The position numbers and the translations under genes were made by a program. A DNA stretch of 28,200 bases, taken from a virus. A model generated the notes under the pieces. It saw only the letters and a list, made by a program, of their open reading frames with translations. It did not search any database and was not told where the DNA came from. Within the stretch, counting starts at the first letter, position 1. Each line of letters begins with the position of its first letter. Below, piece after piece: positions 1,690-11,164 of the stretch. The stretch spans positions 1 through 28,200 of IMG/VR virus record IMGVR_UViG_3300035665_000191, one strand, 5' to 3'.

Positions 1690-1947
1690 TCAGCACTTCC
1701 ATCGTTTGAGCGCCGCTTTGGCGCGTTCGCCATCTTTGGCCTTGGCGGCTACCCCGCCCATACGCGCGCAAAATGACGCTTTGCGCCCTTTGTCTGCTTC
1801 TGTCTTGGGATTAGGCGCAGGCGCTTTCAAATTGCTTCCTGTGGCTCGGTTGTATTTTTCACGCCCCTTGGCCGTCAGCCCAGCGCCTTTGCTGACGGGC
1901 AGCTTCTCGCCGCGCCCGACCGACAGGCTGACAGACTTCTTGCTCAT
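1690..1947 (-). CDS. DUF6321-type small basic protein (85 aa)
   Basis: This 85-residue protein has the signature GLTAKGREKYNRATGSNLKAPAPNPKT followed, after a short gap, by KASFCARMGG and a C-terminal KRWKC. These are hallmarks of the DUF6321 family, found in phages and phage-like regions with no biochemical function assigned. It is rich in Lys and Arg and has two conserved cysteines. Its ATG overlaps the terL stop codon (ATGA), so translation is coupled to the large terminase. It is the first and longest of three consecutive small basic proteins before the portal, suggesting a packaging or assembly role, which is inference only. Confidence 0.78.
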   Translation of the reverse strand: MSKKSVSLSVGRGEKLPVSKGAGLTAKGREKYNRATGSNLKAPAPNPKTEADKGRKASFCARMGGVAAKAKDGERAKAALKRWKC

Positions 1948-3470
1948 GCGCCCATCCAGCCGGTTGCGCCTGCGGTGCGGTCGCTGTAGTGGCGACGGGG
2001 CATGGCTGCGCGGGGTTCGCGGGAGGCGACTGGAAATGCGAACGTCACCGCGATCGCATCGGCGGCGTCAGGAGAAGCTAGACCCCTGGCTTTCATATCC
2101 TTCTTGCTCTCCAAGAAGATCGTACCGCTTGAGTCGGGTTTGGTCTTAGGCCCGGTCAGATCCGCCTTCAGTTGCCTGTCTGGCGCAATTGACGCAGTTC
2201 TTAACCAGTCCCGCAGCGCACCCCACAGCTCAGCGCGCTTGTTACCCCACATCACTTGGTTTTTGGCTTTCCAGCCAAAGTTGACCCCACGCACCTTATA
2301 CCGCTGTTCGACCAGCCGGTCAAGTATGCCGTACCCCAACCCACCCTCGTCAATCACCGTCAGCGTCGGTTTGTATTCCTCGATCGCGTCGATGACGTGC
2401 CCCACAGTCGTCATCGTATCATCACCCCGGTACCGCTTAATCGCGATGATGTCACGCCCTTGGCGCACCGCAATGACCGTCGAGTCACCGCCCGACCTGG
2501 CTGGGTCGATGCCGATCACAATTGGCGCTGTCTCGTCTTTGTGCTTGGGTCGGCCAAACGCCTGATCGACCAACGCGGGTCCGATGAACTGGTCGTCACC
2601 TGCGCTGGGGAATTCGCCGTACACCTCGACCTTGGCCTGTATCGAGTCTTCGCCGTACTCCGCGATGATCTGCTCGTAGACCTGTTTGTCGGTGTCCTCA
2701 ACGTCGCGGGCGTCGATGTTCTCTGTCGACCAAAAGTCGCGCTTGGAGTTGAAGCACTCAAAGAAGTAGCCTTGGTTGCGGCGCGGATTGGAGAAAGCAA
2801 ACCAGAACCTGTGCGGCGTGTTTTCGGTAAAGAAGCCAGCGGCCACCTGCCAGATTGAGTCTGGAATACCTGACGCCTCATCGAAGATCAAACACACGCC
2901 GTCCAGGTTGTGCAGACCGGCGTAAGCGTCCGGGTTCTCTTCCGACCACAGACGCCCCTCAATCGACCAGAAGCGCGTGCCTTTCTTCAAGTCCCGTTCG
3001 ACGATCTCCGCCAGCCACTTAGCCGGCGCGACCTTGGTTGCGCTGATCTCAAACCAATGGCTGTTAATCATCATCGCCAGCCACTTGGTGATCTCTGACC
3101 AGGTGATACTGCGGAGCTGCGCCTCACTGTTGGCTGACACGATCGTCGTCGAGCCTATGCGCGTTGAGAGCATCCACAGCACGAGCCAACTGACTAGCGC
3201 AGACTTACCGATTCCCCGGCCTGACGCTACCGCAGACCGCAAGACGTTGTAATCAACCCGCCCACTGTTGTCTTTGATGTGCTGCGTAATCTTCCGCAAC
3301 ACCTGACGCTGCCACTTGCGCGGGCCTTTGTAGTTGGCCAGTGGCGTGCCGTGTTGCCCCCACGGGAACGCAAAGTTTACAAACGCTTCCGGGTCGTCTT
3401 TGATGCGCGGCTGCCAAAGCCGCGTCATCAAGAGCATTTCATCAGAGGCGTTGTAGATCGGCTGCTGCAA
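1944..3470 (-). CDS. terL: Terminase large subunit (packaging ATPase/nuclease)
   Basis: The 508-residue protein drives DNA translocation into the prohead and cuts the concatemer. The N-terminal ATPase has a Walker A GRGIGKS at residues 84-90 and a Walker B VCLIFDE at 192-198. The C-terminal RNase H-fold nuclease shows the acidic set: D322 in GIDPARSGGDS, D374/E375 in VIDEGG, and D468/D471 in SPDAADAI. Length and domain order are those of a complete large terminase. The start at 3470 overlaps the end of terS by 29 bases; a later Met (residue 12 or 15) is possible. It sits between terS and the small basic genes that precede the portal, as in P22-like phages. Confidence 0.95.
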   Translation of the reverse strand: MQQPIYNASDEMLLMTRLWQPRIKDDPEAFVNFAFPWGQHGTPLANYKGPRKWQRQVLRKITQHIKDNSGRVDYNVLRSAVASGRGIGKSALVSWLVLWMLSTRIGSTTIVSANSEAQLRSITWSEITKWLAMMINSHWFEISATKVAPAKWLAEIVERDLKKGTRFWSIEGRLWSEENPDAYAGLHNLDGVCLIFDEASGIPDSIWQVAAGFFTENTPHRFWFAFSNPRRNQGYFFECFNSKRDFWSTENIDARDVEDTDKQVYEQIIAEYGEDSIQAKVEVYGEFPSAGDDQFIGPALVDQAFGRPKHKDETAPIVIGIDPARSGGDSTVIAVRQGRDIIAIKRYRGDDTMTTVGHVIDAIEEYKPTLTVIDEGGLGYGILDRLVEQRYKVRGVNFGWKAKNQVMWGNKRAELWGALRDWLRTASIAPDRQLKADLTGPKTKPDSSGTIFLESKKDMKARGLASPDAADAIAVTFAFPVASREPRAAMPRRHYSDRTAGATGWMGA

Positions 3471-3882
3471 GTGTTGGCTCCAGTCGCTCTGTTACCTGCA
3501 CGTCGATGACGCGCTGCTCTGCTTTCTCAAGCGCCGATATTACGCTGATCTGCTGCGCTACGTCGATCTGCACTTGTTGCTTGGCGACCCAATCGTGGCG
3601 ATGGCGCAGGATCTCTAGCGCCGCTTTGGTGTCGCCTGACATAGCTGCGTCCATCATCACAGCCGCAAGCGCCCCTTCTGCGTCAGCGCGCCCCTTCTGC
3701 TCTGCCATCTCGGCAATCGGGTCCATCTCGCACAGACGCCGATACTCGGTCGGCAACATGCCAGCCTTCAACGCCAGCGAGTCACCTTTTAGACCCAACT
3801 TGGCAGCCTCGTAGATGCGCTGCAAGCGCGCCTCGGTCGCCTCTAGTTTGCGCGCGGTGAGCGGCAAGGATTGGAAGGTCAT
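3442..3882 (-). CDS. terS: Terminase small subunit (DNA recognition)
   Basis: This 146-residue, largely helical protein lies directly upstream of terL. The N-terminal part (about residues 15-60, EARLQRIYEAAKLGLKGDS followed by ALKAGMLPTEYRRL) looks like a helix-turn-helix DNA-binding region, followed by a long helical segment suited to ring oligomerisation. Small terminases bind the pac or cos site and load the large subunit. P22 gp3 is 162 residues, so the size fits. It is the first gene of the visible late operon, starting at the ATG at 3882 with no strong Shine-Dalgarno, and a perfect TATAAT lies 36 bases upstream. The call rests on position and general fold more than on a sharp sequence signature. 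Confidence 0.82.
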   Translation of the reverse strand: MTFQSLPLTARKLEATEARLQRIYEAAKLGLKGDSLALKAGMLPTEYRRLCEMDPIAEMAEQKGRADAEGALAAVMMDAAMSGDTKAALEILRHRHDWVAKQQVQIDVAQQISVISALEKAEQRVIDVQVTERLEPTLAAADLQRL

Positions 3883-4013: not shown

Positions 4014-4055
4014 CCGTCAGCCGTCAGCCGTCAGCCGTCAGCCGTCAGCCGTCAG
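4014..4055. repeat. Six perfect tandem CCGTCAG heptamers
   Basis: The 42 bases consist of six exact head-to-tail copies of CCGTCAG with no interruption, running straight into the CCCG tetramer array. The tract is within the non-coding region, between terS and the early genes. It could be a protein-binding array near the origin or packaging start, or a slippage-generated satellite; the sequence does not decide. Confidence 0.95.
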
Positions 4056-4131
4056 CCCGCCCGCCCGCCAGCCCGCCCGCCCGCCCGCCCGCCCGCCCGC
4101 CCGCCCGCCCGCCCGCCCGCCCGCCCGCCCG
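4056..4131. repeat. CCCG tetranucleotide array (18 perfect units, one variant)
   Basis: Three CCCG units are followed by one CCAG variant and then fifteen uninterrupted CCCG units (4072-4131). On the minus strand this reads GGGC repeated, i.e. G-triplets separated by single C, the pattern of a very stable G-quadruplex. The overlapping open frames encode only Ala-Arg-Pro-Pro repeats and are not credible genes. The tract is prone to strand slippage, so its length in the assembly may not be exact. Confidence 0.93.
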
Positions 4132-4160
4132 CCTGCCGTGCGCCCTGGGTGCGCGGTCGA

Positions 4161-4543: not shown

Positions 4544-4573
4544 TTGACACTGCCACAAATGTTGTGGCAAGAT
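4544..4573 (+). promoter_or_regulatory. Early promoter with a perfect operator palindrome
   Basis: A perfect -35 box TTGACA (4544-4549) is followed at 18 bases by a weak -10 CAAGAT (4568-4573). The spacer holds TGCCACAAATGTTGTGGCA (4551-4569), a perfect palindrome with 8 base arms and a 3 base centre that also covers part of the -10. An operator in this position would block RNA polymerase when bound. The downstream gene begins at 4621, leaving a leader of about 40 bases. The binding protein is not identified; the winged-helix protein at 17185-17466 and a host regulator are both possible. Confidence 0.6.
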
Positions 4574-4620: not shown

Positions 4621-4806
4621 ATGACCAAACACCAAACCACTACCGTCAACACCACACTGGCGCGCCTGCCGATCCTTGGCGCCGACTATGCCGCGCGCGT
4701 GCTGTCCGCCCTTCATCGTTCCGCCATGCGCGCCACGCAGCAACGCGAGATTGCCGCGATCGCCGCCGCGCACGGGCTGACCCGCTCGCCTAATTGGATT
4801 GTTTAA
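4621..4806 (+). CDS. Early protein of unknown function (61 aa)
   Basis: This is the first gene of the early plus-strand block, 61 residues, starting at the ATG at 4621 eight bases after a clear AGGAG. The open frame extends upstream to 4276, but that part crosses the iterons and the promoter and has no ribosome site, so the short form is right. It is Ala/Arg/Thr-rich and mostly helical in appearance, with an AAIAAAHGL segment that vaguely resembles part of a helix-turn-helix. I do not recognise the family. Its stop TAA lies inside the first copy of a 30 base exact repeat that carries a hairpin (4803-4832). As the promoter-proximal early gene it is a candidate host-takeover or control protein; this is inference. 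Confidence 0.65.
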   Translation: MTKHQTTTVNTTLARLPILGADYAARVLSALHRSAMRATQQREIAAIAAAHGLTRSPNWIV

Positions 4807-4835
4807 CTAACCCGCGCGCCTACGGGCGCGCTTTT
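4803..4835 (+). repeat. Hairpin repeat, copy 1 (with TACG loop and T run)
   Basis: A 30 base stretch (4803-4832) is repeated exactly at 5806-5835. It contains the stem GCGCGCC/GGCGCGC (7 bp) closed around a TACG loop, so the RNA would form a C(UACG)G tetraloop, one of the most stable known. Here it is followed by TTTT and so may act as a partial terminator or as an mRNA processing or stability element before the clamp-like gene. Confidence 0.7.
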
Positions 4836-4854
4836 AACCCTTGGAGACACTGCA

Positions 4855-5496
4855 ATGAAAATCACCATCGATCATTCCATCATCAAAGCCCTTCTCATCT
4901 GCGCCGCTAAACAGGACATTCGTTATTACTTGAAAGGCATATCTGTCGACGCGCGCGCCAATGGCGACGTCGTGCTAGTCGCCACCGACGGCCACCGTCT
5001 ACTTGCCTACCCTGTCGCTGTCGACAATATCGAAGCACTCGCGCCCGGCGAATACGTCATTCCGCGAGAGACGCTTGAGGCAGTCAAACCCGCGAAAGCC
5101 GGGCGGACTGTGCTACCTATTCAGATTGACATTGTGACGGCGCCCGATACCCGTCACCCGGAAGATGCTGAAGTCATCATTAAGGGCAAAACCAGTATCA
5201 CCGTCACGGGCGCCACCAGCGCCGTCACGGCGCCGATTGACGGGAAGTTTCCTGACTGGCGCCGGATTGTCCCGGCGTCAACATCCGGCGAGATTGCCCA
5301 GTTCAATGCCGACTATGTTGCTGGGTTTGGTGACGTTTGCAAGTTGCTGGGCGGGTCATATGGTCCCTTCATCAATCACAATGGCAGCGCGCCGTCCGTC
5401 GTCACCAATCTACCCGGCGCGCTCGGTTTGATCATGCCCTTGCGCCTTGACGGTGACGAATTGAAGTACACGGGCAAACCCGCGTTCGCAGTCTGA
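4855..5496 (+). CDS. Shortened DNA polymerase III beta clamp-like protein (213 aa)
   Basis: The protein aligns by eye with domains II and III of bacterial DnaN: QDIRYYL at 20-26, ATDGHRL at 43-49, DGKFPDWRR at 129-137 and a near-terminal IMPLRL at 193-198. E. coli DnaN has QDVRYYL, ATDGHRL, DGRFPDYRR and ends in VMPMRL. Domain I is absent and only about the second half of domain III is present (213 against 366 residues). The residues lining the DnaN pocket that binds QLxLF-type peptides are kept: Thr44, Gly46, His47, Arg48, Leu49, Pro140 and Met194-Pro195. It may be a phage clamp that assembles with a different stoichiometry, or a decoy for host clamp-binding proteins. The ATG follows GGAG at 4843, in the hairpin-led early gene block. 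Homology is strong; function is open. Confidence 0.85.
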   Translation: MKITIDHSIIKALLICAAKQDIRYYLKGISVDARANGDVVLVATDGHRLLAYPVAVDNIEALAPGEYVIPRETLEAVKPAKAGRTVLPIQIDIVTAPDTRHPEDAEVIIKGKTSITVTGATSAVTAPIDGKFPDWRRIVPASTSGEIAQFNADYVAGFGDVCKLLGGSYGPFINHNGSAPSVVTNLPGALGLIMPLRLDGDELKYTGKPAFAV

Positions 5497-5505
5497 CACT
5501 GACCC

Positions 5506-5528
5506 GCGCGCCTCACGTCGAGGCGCGC
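5506..5528 (+). other. Intergenic hairpin before the 84 aa gene
   Basis: GCGCGCCTC-ACGTC-GAGGCGCGC gives a perfect 9 bp stem with a 5 base loop, followed by CTCTTTC and the Shine-Dalgarno CGGAGA (5535-5540). It shares the flanking ACCCGCGCGCC with the two exact hairpin repeats but has a different loop, so it is a diverged member of the same leader type. Confidence 0.6.
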
Positions 5529-5547
5529 CTCTTTCGGAGATACTGAC

Positions 5548-5802
5548 ATGGCCTACTTTTTCATCGAAATCACCGATACTTTCGGCGGTGAAGCGAATTA
5601 CTCATGGGTCACGCGCCACAAGGTGCGCGCCACGTCCGAGCGCGGCGCGCTAATCCGCGTCAACCGTGATTCGGGGCTCAGCTTCCGTTCGGTTGGTGGC
5701 GGCCGATACGATTCGCGCTCTGGCGCGACGTGTTGTTTCATCGATCATTGGGATGACGACACTCATCCTCAGTATTTGCATGTCCAGACTGAACTTGCCT
5801 GA
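5548..5802 (+). CDS. Conserved phage protein of unknown function (84 aa)
   Basis: This 84-residue protein starts MAYFFIEITDTFGGEANYSWV, continues TRHKVRATSERGALIRVNR, and has a C-terminal C-C-F-I-D-H-W stretch. I recognise the pattern YSWVxRxxVxAxxxRGA as recurrent in small phage proteins, with no known role. It is predicted to be a small alpha/beta soluble protein. It follows the clamp-like gene and is preceded by its own hairpin and a CGGAGA ribosome site eight bases or so from the ATG, so it is probably translated independently from the early transcript. No membrane segment or catalytic motif is visible. Confidence 0.7.
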   Translation: MAYFFIEITDTFGGEANYSWVTRHKVRATSERGALIRVNRDSGLSFRSVGGGRYDSRSGATCCFIDHWDDDTHPQYLHVQTELA

Positions 5803-5805
5803 CCG

Positions 5806-5835
5806 TTAACTAACCCGCGCGCCTACGGGCGCGCT
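5806..5835 (+). repeat. Hairpin repeat, copy 2 (TACG loop)
   Basis: This is the exact second copy of the 30 base unit at 4803-4832, again with a 7 bp GC stem (5817-5823 with 5828-5834) and a TACG loop. No T run follows here; instead AAAGGAG (5846-5852) and the ATG of the next gene at 5858 follow. The absence of the T run argues that the conserved role is RNA structure rather than termination. Confidence 0.7.
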
Positions 5836-5857
5836 CACTATCTTAAAGGAGCCGACA

Positions 5858-6283
5858 ATGGACCGTTCGCAACTCATCCAAGCCTTGCACGCCTTCATCG
5901 AATCACGCCCCGGATTCGATCCGGCAAACTACGCTGGCGCGCCCGAGGCATACCGCGCAGACTCTCGCCGCGCCTTGCGCCATCTTCATGATGCCCGCGC
6001 TATGCTGAAAGCGATCGGCTGGCGCGACAGTATCGGCGCCGACGATATCGTGCGCGCTAAGCACCATCGAATCGATTTCGTGCCAGCTGGAAACGTGGTG
6101 CGTGTCGACTACACCACGGGCCAGTATTACCCGATCGAGTACCGCGCAGCGGCATGCGCCACGCTCGCCGCGACTCTGTGGCACTACTTCCGCGAAAAGT
6201 GCGGCGCTAAGACCGTCGACGATATTCAGCGCATGGCGCGCCTGGGACTCGGGCGCTCGATCGCTGGCCGCTGGTTTCATTGA
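5858..6283 (+). CDS. Phage protein of unknown function (141 aa)
   Basis: The 141-residue protein starts at the ATG at 5858, six bases after AAAGGAG. The N-terminal half is helical and basic (residues 1-50). The C-terminal half contains YYPIEYRAAACATLAATLWHYFRE and ends RLGLGRSIAGRWFH. That second half resembles a type of phage hypothetical protein in which the EYRAAAC and terminal RRWF-like elements recur; no function is known to me. It is the fourth and last early gene with a hairpin leader. No catalytic residues can be named. It probably acts early in infection because of its place, which is inference. Confidence 0.68.
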   Translation: MDRSQLIQALHAFIESRPGFDPANYAGAPEAYRADSRRALRHLHDARAMLKAIGWRDSIGADDIVRAKHHRIDFVPAGNVVRVDYTTGQYYPIEYRAAACATLAATLWHYFREKCGAKTVDDIQRMARLGLGRSIAGRWFH

Positions 6284-6295
6284 GGAGCGCGCATT

Positions 6296-6496
6296 ATGAC
6301 ACTACACGACGCAATCACCTTTGTTCGCGCCGCTAAGGCAACCGGCGAGATTATCGATTATTGGACCCGTCGCGGCGCTGACGGCAGCTTGTCCCTATAC
6401 GTTCGCCTTGAGTGCGGCGTGGACCCGGACCCGTGGTGGACAGATCAAGATGAACCCGCCTCGGACCCGTATTGCTCAGCCCGTGGAGGATTTTAA
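6296..6496 (+). CDS. Small early protein of unknown function (66 aa)
   Basis: This 66-residue acidic protein starts at the ATG at 6296 with GAGGAG (6282-6287) nine bases upstream, just after the stop of the previous gene. The N-terminal half (MTLHDAITFVRAAKATGEII) looks helical; the C-terminal half is rich in Asp, Pro and Trp (DPDPWWTDQDEPASDP). I do not recognise a family. An out-of-frame reading at 6321-6518 is a shadow. A Shine-Dalgarno for the next tiny gene (GGAGGA at 6485-6490) overlaps its 3' end, so the genes are tightly packed. Confidence 0.6.
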   Translation: MTLHDAITFVRAAKATGEIIDYWTRRGADGSLSLYVRLECGVDPDPWWTDQDEPASDPYCSARGGF

Positions 6497-6498
6497 CT

Positions 6499-6585
6499 AT
6501 GCCCTCAAACCTCATTGAATGGACCATATTCATCAGCGCCGGTATCGCGCTTGGGCTTGTACTCTTTTTTGGATTGTCATCATGA
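6499..6585 (+). CDS. 28-residue single-pass membrane peptide
   Basis: An ATG at 6499 with a strong GGAGGA eight bases upstream opens a 28-codon gene that begins MPSNLIEWTIFISAGIALG and is followed by a short hydrophobic run ending FFGLSS. About residues 7-26 form one continuous hydrophobic helix. The stop TGA overlaps the ATG of the next gene (ATGA at 6582-6585), which argues that the frame is translated. I do not know a named family. Small early phage membrane peptides can modify host membrane enzymes or exclude other phages; which applies here cannot be told. Confidence 0.6.
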   Translation: MPSNLIEWTIFISAGIALGLVLFFGLSS

Positions 6586-6776
6586 AACGACACTACGGTG
6601 AAACCAAAGCGCAACGCCAAGCGGACTATTGCGCGCGATTCTCGGACCTTTTCTTGACCCGCGCGCCCCAGCTATCGGGGCGCATAGAATGGCCGGCGGT
6701 CCTTCACTATTACCATTCCGGCGCGCCAGTGACCGACGCGGTTGACCAATATTGCATGGCCCGCAACATCCTATGA
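6582..6776 (+). CDS. Small early protein of unknown function (64 aa)
   Basis: The true start is the ATG at 6582, overlapping the stop of the membrane peptide; a longer reading from 6519 would cover that gene and has no ribosome site. The 64 residues begin MKRHYGETKAQRQADY and include LSGRIEWPAVLHYYHSGAPV. The protein is basic at the N-terminus, soluble, and contains a helix-rich middle. No family is recognised. Its stop TGA overlaps the ATG of the following 20-residue peptide, making a three-gene coupled string. Confidence 0.6.
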   Translation: MKRHYGETKAQRQADYCARFSDLFLTRAPQLSGRIEWPAVLHYYHSGAPVTDAVDQYCMARNIL

Positions 6777-6852: not shown

Positions 6853-6878
6853 AAGGGCGCCCGTAGGCGCCCTTTTTT
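6853..6878 (+). terminator. Strong intrinsic terminator of the early block
   Basis: AAGGGCGCC (6853-6861) pairs perfectly with GGCGCCCTT (6866-6874) around a CGTA loop, followed by a run of six T ending at 6878. It closes the plus-strand early transcription unit. The primase stop codon on the other strand lies in the T run, so the convergent genes are separated only by this element. Confidence 0.88.
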
Positions 6879-9210
6879 ATTTGACCGCTCGCAACATAGT
6901 CCCGCCGCCGCTCGCGTCTAACATGCGCCGAATCTCGGATTTATTGCCTCGGACCTTATCGAGCACGTCCGGCGCCGCGTAGACGTGGACCTTGTTCCCA
7001 TTGTCCGCCGTTTTGACCCGCCCAAGATCGATCCAGCCTGCCTCGCGCAGCGCGTGAAACAGCGCGTAAACGCTGCACTTGGTCCCAGCGGGCATCGAGG
7101 CCTGCAATCGGTCAACCAGCGCTTGCCATGGCCCCTGCGCGGCGCCTAGTGCGAATTCGCCGCGACGCTGGCGCATCATTTCGACCAATGCCGATTCAAC
7201 CGCTGAAAGGCCCGCCGCCAGCATGATCGCTTTCGCCTCGGTCATCGGGGGCGCGCCGCCAGGCGCGAAAGCGCTCACGTCACGCGCACGCAACCAGCCC
7301 GCGCCCGCGTCCCGTCCGCCGCCGGTCTTTAGCCAATCCCAGATTTCGTCGCCCTCTCTGATCGTCAACGGCTTCGCGTCCGACCAGAGTACGTACCAGC
7401 GGCGATCGTCCGACGGTAGCGTTATCGCCATGCGCTCATTTGAGAATGCGACCACGGACAGGCGATTCAACGCATCGAACGGGTGCAATCCCTTCCGATT
7501 GACCGGAATCAATTCCGGTGGCGCCGCCAGCAAGGGTTTCAGTCGGTTTTCGAGCGCGCGCCGATCGTGCGCTTCCGCTTGGCGCAGTTCATTGATGACC
7601 AGCACCTCGGACATCAGCGAGTAGCCCCATTGGCTATTCAATTCCTCATTCTTGACCAGCGCAATATTTTCCTTCGATAGCCCGCCGACCGCATACAGGA
7701 ACGGCTCGAAAATCGTATCCTTCCCGATGCCATGCGACCCGCCCAATAGAATCCCGTGATTGATCTTTTGCTCGGGGTGCTGGACCTTGTACGCCATCCA
7801 GTCGAGCAGGTGCTCGCGCTCGTTCGCGTCCGGTAACAGGCGCTCTACCAAATCCAGCCATCGGGTCGGATCGCCCCCGCCTGACGTCGGTCGCGCATTG
7901 CGCCAAAGGTTCGCGTAAACGTCCCCAGCGCGCGACACCAGCACCGACTCACCAGGCGCATAGGTGACCCCTTGCAGCACCTTGGCACCCATCGCCTGAC
8001 GGTTCTCGTCAAACGATATGCTCGCCTCGACCCGACGCTTTTTCGCGCCTGTCGCATGGACCGACCAGCATGTGACATGGCGATAGATCGCGTTGAAATT
8101 ACCGCGCGAATACTGCCGACGGTCGACCAGATCGAAATATCCATCGTCCGCATGCAGGTACGCGAACCGTTCAAACCATTCCGCCCGCTCGGCTCGACCG
8201 GCCTCGCGGCGCTCGACCTCGGCCACGACCGCAGCCGCAGCGTCCGGGTAATCTTCGGTCGGCGTCAGGCGCGACATGACCTCGGACATGCGCTGCGTCA
8301 GCAGCTCGTCGCGCAGCCCCGGCGTATGCTTCGGTCCGCCCTGCTCAGCGACCCACGCGAGGAACCGGGCGCTGTCCCAATCGCCACAATGGCCGTGATA
8401 ACAACAATACGCGCGCGTGAGGCCCAGATACCGGCCCTCGGGGTTCCCGTCGCTGTGGTCGGCGCTGTTCGGGCAAACAACCCCAGCCCAGCCCTCCGGG
8501 TTCGGACGCGACAGCACCAGACCCTGCGCCGACAGCCACGCGAGCACGTCATCAGCCCCATCGTCCGACAGGCGCACGGGCCGCACGCCCGCGCTGTCAT
8601 CCGGGCCGGGGTCGACACCCAGCGCGGCGCAGAGGTCCGGCAGCTTGTACGCCCGCTCGGGATGGAACTCGACGAGACGCGCTTGAAAGCCGCCCTTGTC
8701 CGGCTTCAGGTTGACCGAGCCCGGCAAGCGGAAGTTGCGGACAGGATTGATCGCGCCAGGGTCCGAGTAGCCTGCTTCGGCGATCGCGCGGATAGCGGCG
8801 CTGTAAGCCGCTTTAGTCGGTTGGTCCTCGGGGTCAAAGGCATAGCCCCACTGATACGACCCGGCCGACGTTTCCATGACCCACGTCGGCGGGACAGGCG
8901 AGGTGCGCGGTGCCTTGGTGGGCTCGCCCACATCGTCCAGCACCATCACCAGCACATAGTCGACATTCGCCGCGCTCGCGGACGGGCGACCCTGCTCGAA
9001 CCGATCGATGACAAACGACCCGGTATTGCCGTACCAGGCGCCCTCGCGCACCCGCGACAGGTCCGGCAACGATGCCGGCCATGACGCCTTCAGCGCGCCG
9101 TCAGCGTGGTACTGCAATTCGCCATTCGCGTCACGGCGTGGCTTCTGGCGCACAAATAACGCTGTCTCGCCCTCTGGTGCGAGGTCGATGATATACTGCT
9201 CGAAATTCAT
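6877..9210 (-). CDS. Primase-helicase: RepB-like AEP primase, Zn motif and SF3-type helicase (777 aa)
   Basis: I set the start at the ATG at 9210 because AGGAGA lies four bases upstream; a longer frame from 9279 would overlap the polymerase gene. The N-terminal domain (about 50-185) resembles RepB-type archaeo-eukaryotic primases: acidic pair D92-D93 in VMVLDDVG, ETSAGSYQ at 113-120 and NFRLPGSVNLKP at 159-170. A Cys/His cluster (C246, H252, C269/C270, H272/H274, C275) suggests zinc. The C-terminal ATPase (DUF5906-like SF3) has Walker A GGSHGIGKDT (490-499), Walker B VLVINE (536-541), a sensor Asn in FSN (591) and arginines 603-604. It would prime and unwind phage DNA, partnering the polymerase just upstream. 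It is the last gene of the operon. Confidence 0.9.
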   Translation of the reverse strand: MNFEQYIIDLAPEGETALFVRQKPRRDANGELQYHADGALKASWPASLPDLSRVREGAWYGNTGSFVIDRFEQGRPSASAANVDYVLVMVLDDVGEPTKAPRTSPVPPTWVMETSAGSYQWGYAFDPEDQPTKAAYSAAIRAIAEAGYSDPGAINPVRNFRLPGSVNLKPDKGGFQARLVEFHPERAYKLPDLCAALGVDPGPDDSAGVRPVRLSDDGADDVLAWLSAQGLVLSRPNPEGWAGVVCPNSADHSDGNPEGRYLGLTRAYCCYHGHCGDWDSARFLAWVAEQGGPKHTPGLRDELLTQRMSEVMSRLTPTEDYPDAAAAVVAEVERREAGRAERAEWFERFAYLHADDGYFDLVDRRQYSRGNFNAIYRHVTCWSVHATGAKKRRVEASISFDENRQAMGAKVLQGVTYAPGESVLVSRAGDVYANLWRNARPTSGGGDPTRWLDLVERLLPDANEREHLLDWMAYKVQHPEQKINHGILLGGSHGIGKDTIFEPFLYAVGGLSKENIALVKNEELNSQWGYSLMSEVLVINELRQAEAHDRRALENRLKPLLAAPPELIPVNRKGLHPFDALNRLSVVAFSNERMAITLPSDDRRWYVLWSDAKPLTIREGDEIWDWLKTGGGRDAGAGWLRARDVSAFAPGGAPPMTEAKAIMLAAGLSAVESALVEMMRQRRGEFALGAAQGPWQALVDRLQASMPAGTKCSVYALFHALREAGWIDLGRVKTADNGNKVHVYAAPDVLDKVRGNKSEIRRMLDASGGGTMLRAVK

Positions 9211-9221
9211 AGCTTCTCCTG

Positions 9222-9246
9222 CGCCCGCCTGCCAGCGGGCGTTTTT
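9222..9246 (+). terminator. Plus-strand terminator-like hairpin in the pol-primase gap
   Basis: CGCCCGC-CTGCCA-GCGGGCG (7 bp stem, 6 base loop) is followed on the plus strand by TTTTTATTT. It would stop transcription running antisense to the replication operon. Read on the minus strand, the same hairpin lies two bases before the primase ribosome site AGGAGA, repeating the hairpin-then-ribosome-site layout of the early genes. Confidence 0.6.
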
Positions 9247-11164
9247 ATTTGCCGTATCGGGCCATGATTTTGGCCTCAACGGCGAGCGGCAGCCCCACCG
9301 CCCATGCCGGCGGGGTCACCATGATACGCTCAAGCTCGGCCCGCACCCGTTCAGGTTCAGCCGTCTCGATAACGATCTCGTCATGCACTGTCGTCACGGC
9401 CTTCAGGCCCGCCTTATCGGCCTCACGCAGCGCGTACCGCAATAGACAGTGAGCACTTGCCTGCGTCACATTCTCGCAAGCGAGCCCGCCCCATAAGCGC
9501 GCACGCGGCCACTCGGTCGCGTCAGCCGCCGGCTTCCAGCTTGCCTTCGCATAAGTCAAATGCTCGCCCTCGAACTTGGCAAACGGATAGCAGAGCACGC
9601 GCCCGCTGGGCAGCATGTACCAGAGGTGCTGTTTGTCATAGAAATACGTCACGCGACCGGCGTTGAACTCATGGCCGGGGTGACGCATCGCGCTCATGTA
9701 CGCGCGCTCAAGGTCTTGCCAGAACATCACGGCCCACGGGTTCGCGCGGCGCCAAGCGTCGACGATCCGACGGGCTTGCGCCTCCTCAAACCGCACGCCA
9801 TAGCCCCGACCCATCGCAGCGAACGCGCCGGTGCTACCGCCGAAGCCTAGCGCCAGCTCTTGCACCTTGCCGACTTGGCGCTGCTCGTCGGTGACGTCCT
9901 CATACCGCACGCCATAGGTGGCCGCCGCGTTGACCTTGTACGGGTCAAGGCGCTGGCGAAAGATGTCCAACTTCGCTTCAGCGCCACATAGCCACGGGTT
10001 GACCCGGCCCTCGATCGCGCTCCAGTCGGCGACCACAAACGAATGATCGGCCACCAGCGCCGGGCGCAGCATCGACTTCAGGGCGTCAGTGACCCGCTTT
10101 CCGAACCGAGGCACGACAGCGTGGCCTCGAACGAGGGCGTGTCGAAGTTCAGTGGGCTCTTTGGCGGATTTTCGTGGAAAGTTGTGGACCTGCGCGCCAT
10201 AACTCGCAGCGCGGCCTGTCGCTGCGCCTCCAGCAAATACAAATGCGCCTCGCACGCGCTGATCTTCATCATCAGCCAGCGCCGCGAGGCGGCCAAACTT
10301 CGCAGTGCTCGACGCCCAGAGGTCGTCTGCGCATTGGATGACCTCGGCAACAGCGGGCGGTACCTCATCGGGATTCTCCATCGCCAACAAATTGGCGCGC
10401 ACGGTCTTGTCAATCGAGTCTTTGTCTTTCGAGCGCGCGAGCTTCCGGGCCTCTGGCCCCAGCCGCTCTAGCACCCAGGCGCGCATCTTAGGCGATCGCA
10501 CGGACGTCACCGCGCCTTCGGTCAGTTCGACAACGCGCGCCTCGATCTCGACGCGCTCAGCCTCGCTGTAGCGCATGGCCGCAAGGCACAGGTCAACATC
10601 GACCTTGACGCCCCGGTCGTTGATGCGCTCGTTGACGTGGTAGTCGGCCAGCTCTTCAGGCGACAGGTCACGCAAGCTCTTACTGATCGCGCGCATGGCG
10701 CGGACGTCCTGCTTGCAATACTCGAAGAGCGCGGCCAAGTCGTCAGCGGTATGCTTGAACGGTGGCAGGCAGCACTTCCGCACAAGCGCAGCGCCCTTGT
10801 GGTCTTTCTTCATGCTGGCGCCCGCAAACCGCCCGACGTCCTCAAGGCTACCAGGCGCACAGTTCGACCGCGCTTGTGCTGCGGTGCAGTAGAACTGCTC
10901 CAGCGCAGGCTCTGGCAGGTCAAGATCGGGGCAGAGGACGTACCAGAGAATCAGGCGCTCGAATGCCGCATTGTGCGCGCGTATCTGGTGCGACAGAATC
11001 TCACGCGGGAACGGCTGGTCAGGCGTCCAGAGCTCGACCTCGCCATCATCGATCGCATACGCCATGCAAAGCACCTGCGTCGACGGGTGACGAGCGTAGT
11101 TGTACGGGCCGCGCGCGGGCAGGTCACACTCGCTGCGCGTCTCGAAGTCAATGAAAGCGATCAT
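9245..11164 (-). CDS. Family A DNA polymerase with 3'-5' exonuclease domain (639 aa)
   Basis: The N-terminal exonuclease shows Exo I DFE (6-8), HNAAFE (64-69, Exo II-like) and YCKQD with D153 (Exo III). The polymerase core has motif A VVADWSAIEGR (D380, E385), motif B from R429 and K433 into LGFGGSTGAFA, and motif C TVHDEIVIE (H594, D595, E596). All metal ligands expected for an active enzyme are visible. The residue order around motif B (KVQELALGFGG) differs from E. coli Pol I but matches a phage sub-group of PolA. There is no 5'-3' exonuclease domain, as usual in phages. Its start overlaps the end of the upstream 120 aa gene by 17 bases, and the primase-helicase follows. Confidence 0.95.
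   Translation of the reverse strand: MIAFIDFETRSECDLPARGPYNYARHPSTQVLCMAYAIDDGEVELWTPDQPFPREILSHQIRAHNAAFERLILWYVLCPDLDLPEPALEQFYCTAAQARSNCAPGSLEDVGRFAGASMKKDHKGAALVRKCCLPPFKHTADDLAALFEYCKQDVRAMRAISKSLRDLSPEELADYHVNERINDRGVKVDVDLCLAAMRYSEAERVEIEARVVELTEGAVTSVRSPKMRAWVLERLGPEARKLARSKDKDSIDKTVRANLLAMENPDEVPPAVAEVIQCADDLWASSTAKFGRLAALADDEDQRVRGAFVFAGGAATGRAASYGAQVHNFPRKSAKEPTELRHALVRGHAVVPRFGKRVTDALKSMLRPALVADHSFVVADWSAIEGRVNPWLCGAEAKLDIFRQRLDPYKVNAAATYGVRYEDVTDEQRQVGKVQELALGFGGSTGAFAAMGRGYGVRFEEAQARRIVDAWRRANPWAVMFWQDLERAYMSAMRHPGHEFNAGRVTYFYDKQHLWYMLPSGRVLCYPFAKFEGEHLTYAKASWKPAADATEWPRARLWGGLACENVTQASAHCLLRYALREADKAGLKAVTTVHDEIVIETAEPERVRAELERIMVTPPAWAVGLPLAVEAKIMARYGK

Follow-up and report, generated by a model that had tools for sequence, protein, structure and literature searches.

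The peptide pocket of the bacterial sliding clamp is the common docking site for most bacterial DNA polymerases and for several repair proteins, and it is an antibiotic target. Beta*, a product of the host dnaN gene in E. coli that lacks domain I, keeps all of domain III and is reported to form rings. Twort gp168 and N4 gp8 are phage inhibitors of the host clamp system; in the work of Yano and Rothman-Denes from 2011 (cited in PMC7576135) the N4 inhibitor reportedly targets the clamp loader, and to our knowledge neither protein copies the clamp. Twort gp168 fills the DNA channel of the clamp (PMC11139829). The dimer interface of E. coli beta is made by I78 and F106 on one side and by I272 and L273 on the other, and its pocket comprises R152, L155, T172, G174-L177, P242, R246, V247, N320, Y323, V344, V360 and M362-R365 (PMC11139829). 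An engineered monomeric beta (I272A/L273A) offers this pocket without a stable ring, does not support processive replication, and is bound by the clamp-loader subunit delta about 50 times tighter than the dimer (PMC11139829).

The protein described here, referred to as a mini-clamp, is encoded in a 28.2-kb virus contig (IMG/VR record IMGVR_UViG_3300035665_000191), the whole of which was analysed and is called the window. It shares domain II, the second half of domain III and the pocket residues with bacterial DnaN, but has neither domain I nor the first half of domain III, and hence no dimer interface. The preliminary description called it beta*-like, which is apt for the missing domain I but not for domain III, which beta* retains in full. 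Monomeric beta is the closest tested functional analogue, although it is a full-length protein, whereas the interface of the mini-clamp has been lost by deletion. T4 gp45 and PCNA have the clamp fold and, like the mini-clamp, fewer domains than beta, yet they are trimers of two full domains per chain, a class in which a protein of 1.5 domains has no place. The mini-clamp would act on the same machinery as Twort gp168 and N4 gp8. That many unrelated phages carry a ring-less clamp derivative that keeps the pocket suggests a decoy or an adaptor for host proteins; with moderate confidence, we regard it as a host-directed pocket module that forms no ring, most likely a putative decoy for host clamp-binding proteins.

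Clamp homology, which had been proposed from the sequence, is confirmed by several comparisons. The Pfam model of the clamp central domain, PF02767, matches residues 8-134 (E 1.1e-9; 39 bits against a cut-off of 27), the one match to this model in the whole 28.2-kb record, and bacterial clamps are the best matches in a PDB sequence search. The NCBI DnaN model TIGR00663 gives 42.7 bits, under its curated cut-off of 137.65; DnaN proteins have three clamp domains per chain, and the window protein has domain II and half of domain III. In hhalign comparisons, host domain II is the counterpart of residues 1-144 (Prob 99.9, E 6e-37), with host domain I at a Prob of 6.7 only. For residues 141-200 the counterpart is the C-terminal half of domain III (Prob 98.4, E 5.8e-15); the N-terminal half of that domain reaches a Prob of 4.0, and the C-terminal halves of domains II and I stay under 1. 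Domain I is absent, as had been claimed, and the reported shortening of domain III to about half its length can be sharpened to the loss of one clean half-domain, namely the first beta-alpha-beta-beta-beta half at about residues 254-313 of E. coli beta. Across the junction, IAQFNADYV...LIMPLRL of the window protein aligns with MEIGFNVSYV...VVMPMRL of E. coli. Some family members carry a Pro-x-Trp/Phe motif in the C-terminal tail, which is missing from most members in enterobacterial phages.

Table 1. Positions of the mini-clamp gene, its domains and pocket residues (E. coli beta numbering), and neighbouring features in the window.
Feature	Position	Strand	Remarks
Palindrome TGCCACAA-ATG-TTGTGGCA, perfect	4551..4569	.	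directly 3' of TTGACA (4544-4549)
Small ORF, 61 aa	4621..4806	+	heads rightward cluster; retained in the relative whose mini-clamp is replaced
Accessory cluster, mini-clamp and four small ORFs	4855..6776	+	between terminase and primase/polymerase genes
Mini-clamp gene, 213 aa	4855..5496	+	DnaN domain II and C-terminal half of domain III
Residues 1-144, clamp domain II (E. coli 126-253)	4855..5286	+	hhalign
RYYL, pocket R152, L155	4921..4932	+	R in 61 of 61 rows with a letter (62 rows); L in 59 of 62
TDGHRL, pocket T172, G174, H175, R176, L177	4984..5001	+	T 57, G 62, H 54, R 24, L 35 of 62
PDWRRI, pocket P242, R246, V247	5251..5268	+	P 62, R 54, V/I 58 of 62
Residues 145-198, second half of domain III (E. 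coli about 314-366)	5287..5448	+	hhalign, superposition
NADY, pocket N320, Y323 (subsite II)	5305..5316	+	N 32, Y 43 of 62
LIMPLR, pocket V360, M362, P363, M364, R365	5428..5445	+	M362 61, P363 60, R365 59 of 62
C-terminal tail past the last E. coli beta residue	5449..5493	+	
CCCGCGCGCCTACGGGCGCGCT-type hairpins	4803-4832, 5500-5528, 5806-5835, 6655-6683, 6853-6874		

The clamp fold is also present in AlphaFold2 models of the window protein (pLDDT 92.6, pTM 0.86) and of a relative at about 30% identity (pLDDT 90.4, pTM 0.85). When superposed on DnaN, the former covers E. coli beta 126-366 with 171 residues at an rmsd of 2.5 A, and the latter likewise starts at about residue 126 or 128 and reaches 366 at about 2.5 A, with Z 14-16 for the two models; the PDB list used for fold comparison comprised clamps only, so that the absence of other folds from it is uninformative. 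The mini-clamp is thus a clamp module cut down to the peptide pocket, consisting of domain II together with that half of domain III which is needed to complete the pocket. Both segments of the dimer interface are gone, I272/L273 with the half-domain and I78/F106 with domain I, and the protein is probably a monomer (or a small oligomer) that does not encircle DNA. The preliminary description had also considered a clamp of altered ring geometry, in which several copies would close into a true ring. Although the retained parts keep an intact clamp fold and subunit number varies among other clamps, both sides of the known interface are missing, a T4-like carrier already owns a ring clamp, and we know of no clamp in which chains of 1.5 domains make up a six-domain ring or in which half-domains pair as they would have to here; this arrangement is left unsupported and is very improbable.

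The pocket itself is kept, as had been proposed. The four motifs named in the preliminary description correspond to the pocket stretches R152-L155, T172-L177, P242-V247 and V360-R365 of E. coli beta, and the equivalents of N320 and Y323 (N151 and Y154 of the window protein) are retained besides. The CBM-binding pocket residues of DnaN are therefore present, since the window residues are identical or similar at every pocket position except V344, where the alignment is uncertain. Across 62 mini-clamps the freer positions are N320, Y323, R176 (counts in Table 1) and M364 (21 of 62), yet mean column entropy is 1.04 bits at the 18 pocket positions against 2.44 at the 178 others, and none of 20,000 random draws was equally low. 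The pocket is the best-conserved feature of the family, and selection has retained it. Because full-length DnaN, too, is most conserved in its pocket, this conservation shows that peptide binding has been retained and not that the protein is used as a decoy. Pocket residues have drifted in some members (IME_EC2, Proteus 2207-N35 and Mm5), including a change of H175 to Q in the mini-clamp of Morganella phage vB_Mm5, and this drift counts against a decoy.

Mini-clamps occur widely among phages. With tblastn, the window protein finds 112 phage records, 86 of which cover at least 80% of the query, and the Shigella phage EP23 protein finds 275; IMG/VR holds at least 529 related stretches, their lengths not checked one by one. 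More than ten cultured phage groups are carriers, among them Naesvirus, Ryyoungvirus, Dhillonvirus, Kagunavirus, Segzyvirus, Roufvirus, Yokohamavirus, Gorganvirus, Skarprettervirus, Murrayvirus and one member of the Straboviridae. All 60 members measured share the short spacing, with 60-76 residues from P133 to M194 (120 in E. coli) and 14-47 residues ahead of R23 (151 in E. coli). The window gene is under purifying selection relative to 19 close relatives (dN/dS 0.09-0.16), and in a phylogenetic tree 59 of the 61 mini-clamps cluster together, separately from host DnaN (support 100/97). The two exceptions, the longer forms L044 and L056, lie close to full-length clamps (a single group has support of 46/44), and their placement with full-length proteins makes one or two origins possible and a strict single origin not firm. 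What the homologue search recovered is a coherent, selected family and not a set of degraded full-length DnaN copies. A functionless, decaying remnant of a captured dnaN, as implied by the Bcep781 annotators' name 'DNA Pol III b subunit fragment', is contradicted by the dN/dS values, the uniform architecture and the separate tree group, and we consider it next to excluded.

Other record names for the mini-clamp include 'DNA polymerase III beta subunit', 'sliding clamp', 'fragment' and 'RusA-like Holliday junction resolvase'. The last of these is the label of PHROG 3007, the family to which the window protein belongs by a full-length match (E 1.2e-30; residues 1-201 against 1-189 of 190) and by the short spacing, and it has been copied to many RefSeq phage records. 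This label appears to be wrong; a Pfam scan to E 1 returned no RusA model, the fold search returned clamps, and the resolvase assignment was rejected. The gene and its clamp homology have thus already been noted by annotators, and one Kagunavirus paper assumes, without testing, that the product is a working processivity clamp (PMC9825357). A search of the literature outside subscription papers found no study on the function of a short phage DnaN, and neither the exact half-domain architecture across the family nor its misnaming, its accessory behaviour or any function was found described there.

Within the window the gene lies in a short rightward cluster (about 4621-6776), flanked on one side by leftward terminase genes (1944-3882) and on the other by genes for a primase and a family A polymerase that also run leftward (6877-11164). 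Its ATG start is preceded by GGAGA, and its place in a first early transcript, as given in the preliminary description, is putative. Ten contigs over 36 kb whose terminase is at least 74% identical to that of the window were compared, and the mini-clamp is present in five and absent in five, whereas PolA was found in nine. One contig without it, G020, matches the window on either side (TerL 99.0%, TerS 99.3% and PolA 92.5% identical) and keeps the small ORF upstream, but has the mini-clamp cluster swapped for a DUF7227 gene and a second ORF; absence from the other four is less firm because these contigs may be incomplete. The mini-clamp gene is thus accessory and exchangeable, and its lack in five related contigs, with PolA in nine, marks it as dispensable for phage replication. 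In related phages the slot is occupied by other genes (DUF7227 at L329:3581-4243 and phrog_2554 at L330:6549-7277), so that host-interaction genes may be exchanged at this site. The neighbourhood varies elsewhere as well: in several phage groups the mini-clamp stands alone on the opposite strand amid head genes, in one it lies near an anti-restriction gene, and in others it is beside methyltransferases.

The mechanism that best accommodates these observations is one in which the pocket would bind host proteins with clamp motifs (clamp-loader delta, polymerases, MutS/MutL, Hda and others) and draw them away from the host ring. By analogy with the published monomeric beta, delta should prefer the mini-clamp over the ring, and as the mini-clamp needs no ring opening it should compete well for delta. 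The client may differ among phages. In the proteomes of ten carrier phages, canonical clamp-binding motifs occur at, or close to, the frequency expected from shuffling, with no general enrichment, and none is found in the window or in its near-complete close relative G001; Acinetobacter 4316 had two strict matches against 0.2 expected. The lack of enrichment implies that the ligands are probably host proteins. We tentatively propose that such mini-clamps form a widespread class of phage decoy in which nothing but the docking pocket of the clamp is copied, and that they trap the loader or other clients, a mimicry of the replication hub and not an inhibition of it.

The replication genes of the carriers bear on what such a decoy could do. 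Among 16 cultured carriers, PolA was recognised in five, PolB in one and no A, B or C family polymerase in ten (the PF03175 search was run without a positive control), and in Skarpretter, LPSTLL and IME_EC2 the complete list of genes names primase, helicase, SSB and recombination proteins, yet not a polymerase. Such phages presumably use host Pol III, which makes a blunt shut-off decoy less likely and favours a decoy that is selective, or else an adaptor. LPSTLL, at least, combines an intact pocket with the lack of a recognisable polymerase; in carriers of this kind, trapping Pol III or the loader would harm the phage itself, and a total stop of host replication is unlikely wherever host Pol III is needed. 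The decoy put forward in the preliminary description is consistent with a conserved pocket, with the loss of ring parts, with a gene that is accessory and with the absence of motif partners encoded by the phage, and its binding to clients is predicted; its strong form, a shut-down of host replication, is weakened by the ten carriers with no recognisable polymerase. The T4-like Morganella phage vB_Mm5 encodes a mini-clamp together with a gp45-type clamp and PolB, and as it has a clamp of its own, the mini-clamp there is not its processivity clamp.

A replication role is suggested by BPP-1-like phages, in which the mini-clamp directly follows PolA, and this counts against a decoy. The pocket could instead serve as a recruiter or adaptor that captures host clients (Pol III, Pol I, ligase or repair proteins), with another surface, a tail or a partner delivering them to phage DNA, and could thereby help without a loaded ring. 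Many carriers without their own polymerase depend on host enzymes, PolA, nuclease and helicase genes adjoin the mini-clamp in BcepC6B and Acinetobacter 4316, an iteron-like array lies about 400 bases upstream of it in the window, and one lineage has a Lys-rich, histone-like C-terminal tail with a net charge of +21. Delivery of this kind is nevertheless rather unlikely: no single phage partner gene is constant (SNF2 helicase in 9 of 32 records, PolA in 13 of 35), and the mini-clamp is dispensable between near-identical phages that share the same PolA. A fixed association with either the SNF2 helicase or PolA was rejected on these counts, as only part of the carriers have either gene.

The protein might also work as a non-ring processivity factor, a monomer whose pocket holds the polymerase and which contacts DNA directly. 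Ring-less, DNA-binding monomers with the clamp fold do exist, for example herpesvirus UL42 (PMC9690074), and the two DNA-facing helices of the window protein each have a net charge of +2. Overall charge is neutral, however (family median 0, window protein -2), whereas UL42-type clamps are described as strongly positive; the L044 lineage with its basic tail is an exception, and the PolA of the window has no detected clamp-binding motif. Such a role is improbable, and a decoy for host clamp-binding proteins remains the preferred reading. A natural pocket-only protein would reveal how phages rewire host replication or repair, and a mini-clamp would offer a compact reagent for titrating clamp clients in cells. 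Escherichia coli phages with a mini-clamp (e.g., Skarpretter and Kagunavirus) are in culture, which makes the function directly testable, and the family assignment corrects a misleading annotation in many cultured Salmonella, Escherichia and Klebsiella phages.

Related modules occur in other protein contexts. A pocket-bearing clamp module, whose domain III spacing appears longer than that of mini-clamps, lies within a phage polyvalent protein of 3258 aa that also has an ADP-ribosyltransferase domain (L057:4299-14072), and BFVD lists another polyvalent protein with a clamp module; a paper on polyvalent proteins does not mention clamps. The basic tail of the L044 lineage (L044:1392-2345, also L045 and L047) is rich in Lys, Ala and Pro and resembles histone H1, and may possibly be a DNA tether.

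Several features of the DNA around the window gene are also distinctive. A scan for sigma-70 promoters upstream of the mini-clamp gave no match. The palindrome ahead of the cluster (Table 1), of which 0.02 are expected by chance, is found upstream of the mini-clamp in about ten relatives and resembles an operator, through which the cluster may be controlled. Between 4160 and 4461 the window holds five copies of ATGGGTCAAATGGGTCA, four direct and one inverted, where chance would give none; this array is conserved in several relatives, adjoins a CCCGCC tract (4014-4135) and the AT-richest stretch, and could, judged by its layout, be an iteron-type replication origin or a regulatory array. The small genes of the rightward cluster are separated by recurrent copies of a similar GC-rich hairpin (CCCGCGCGCCTACGGGCGCGCT and variants), an arrangement that recalls a series of one-gene cassettes.
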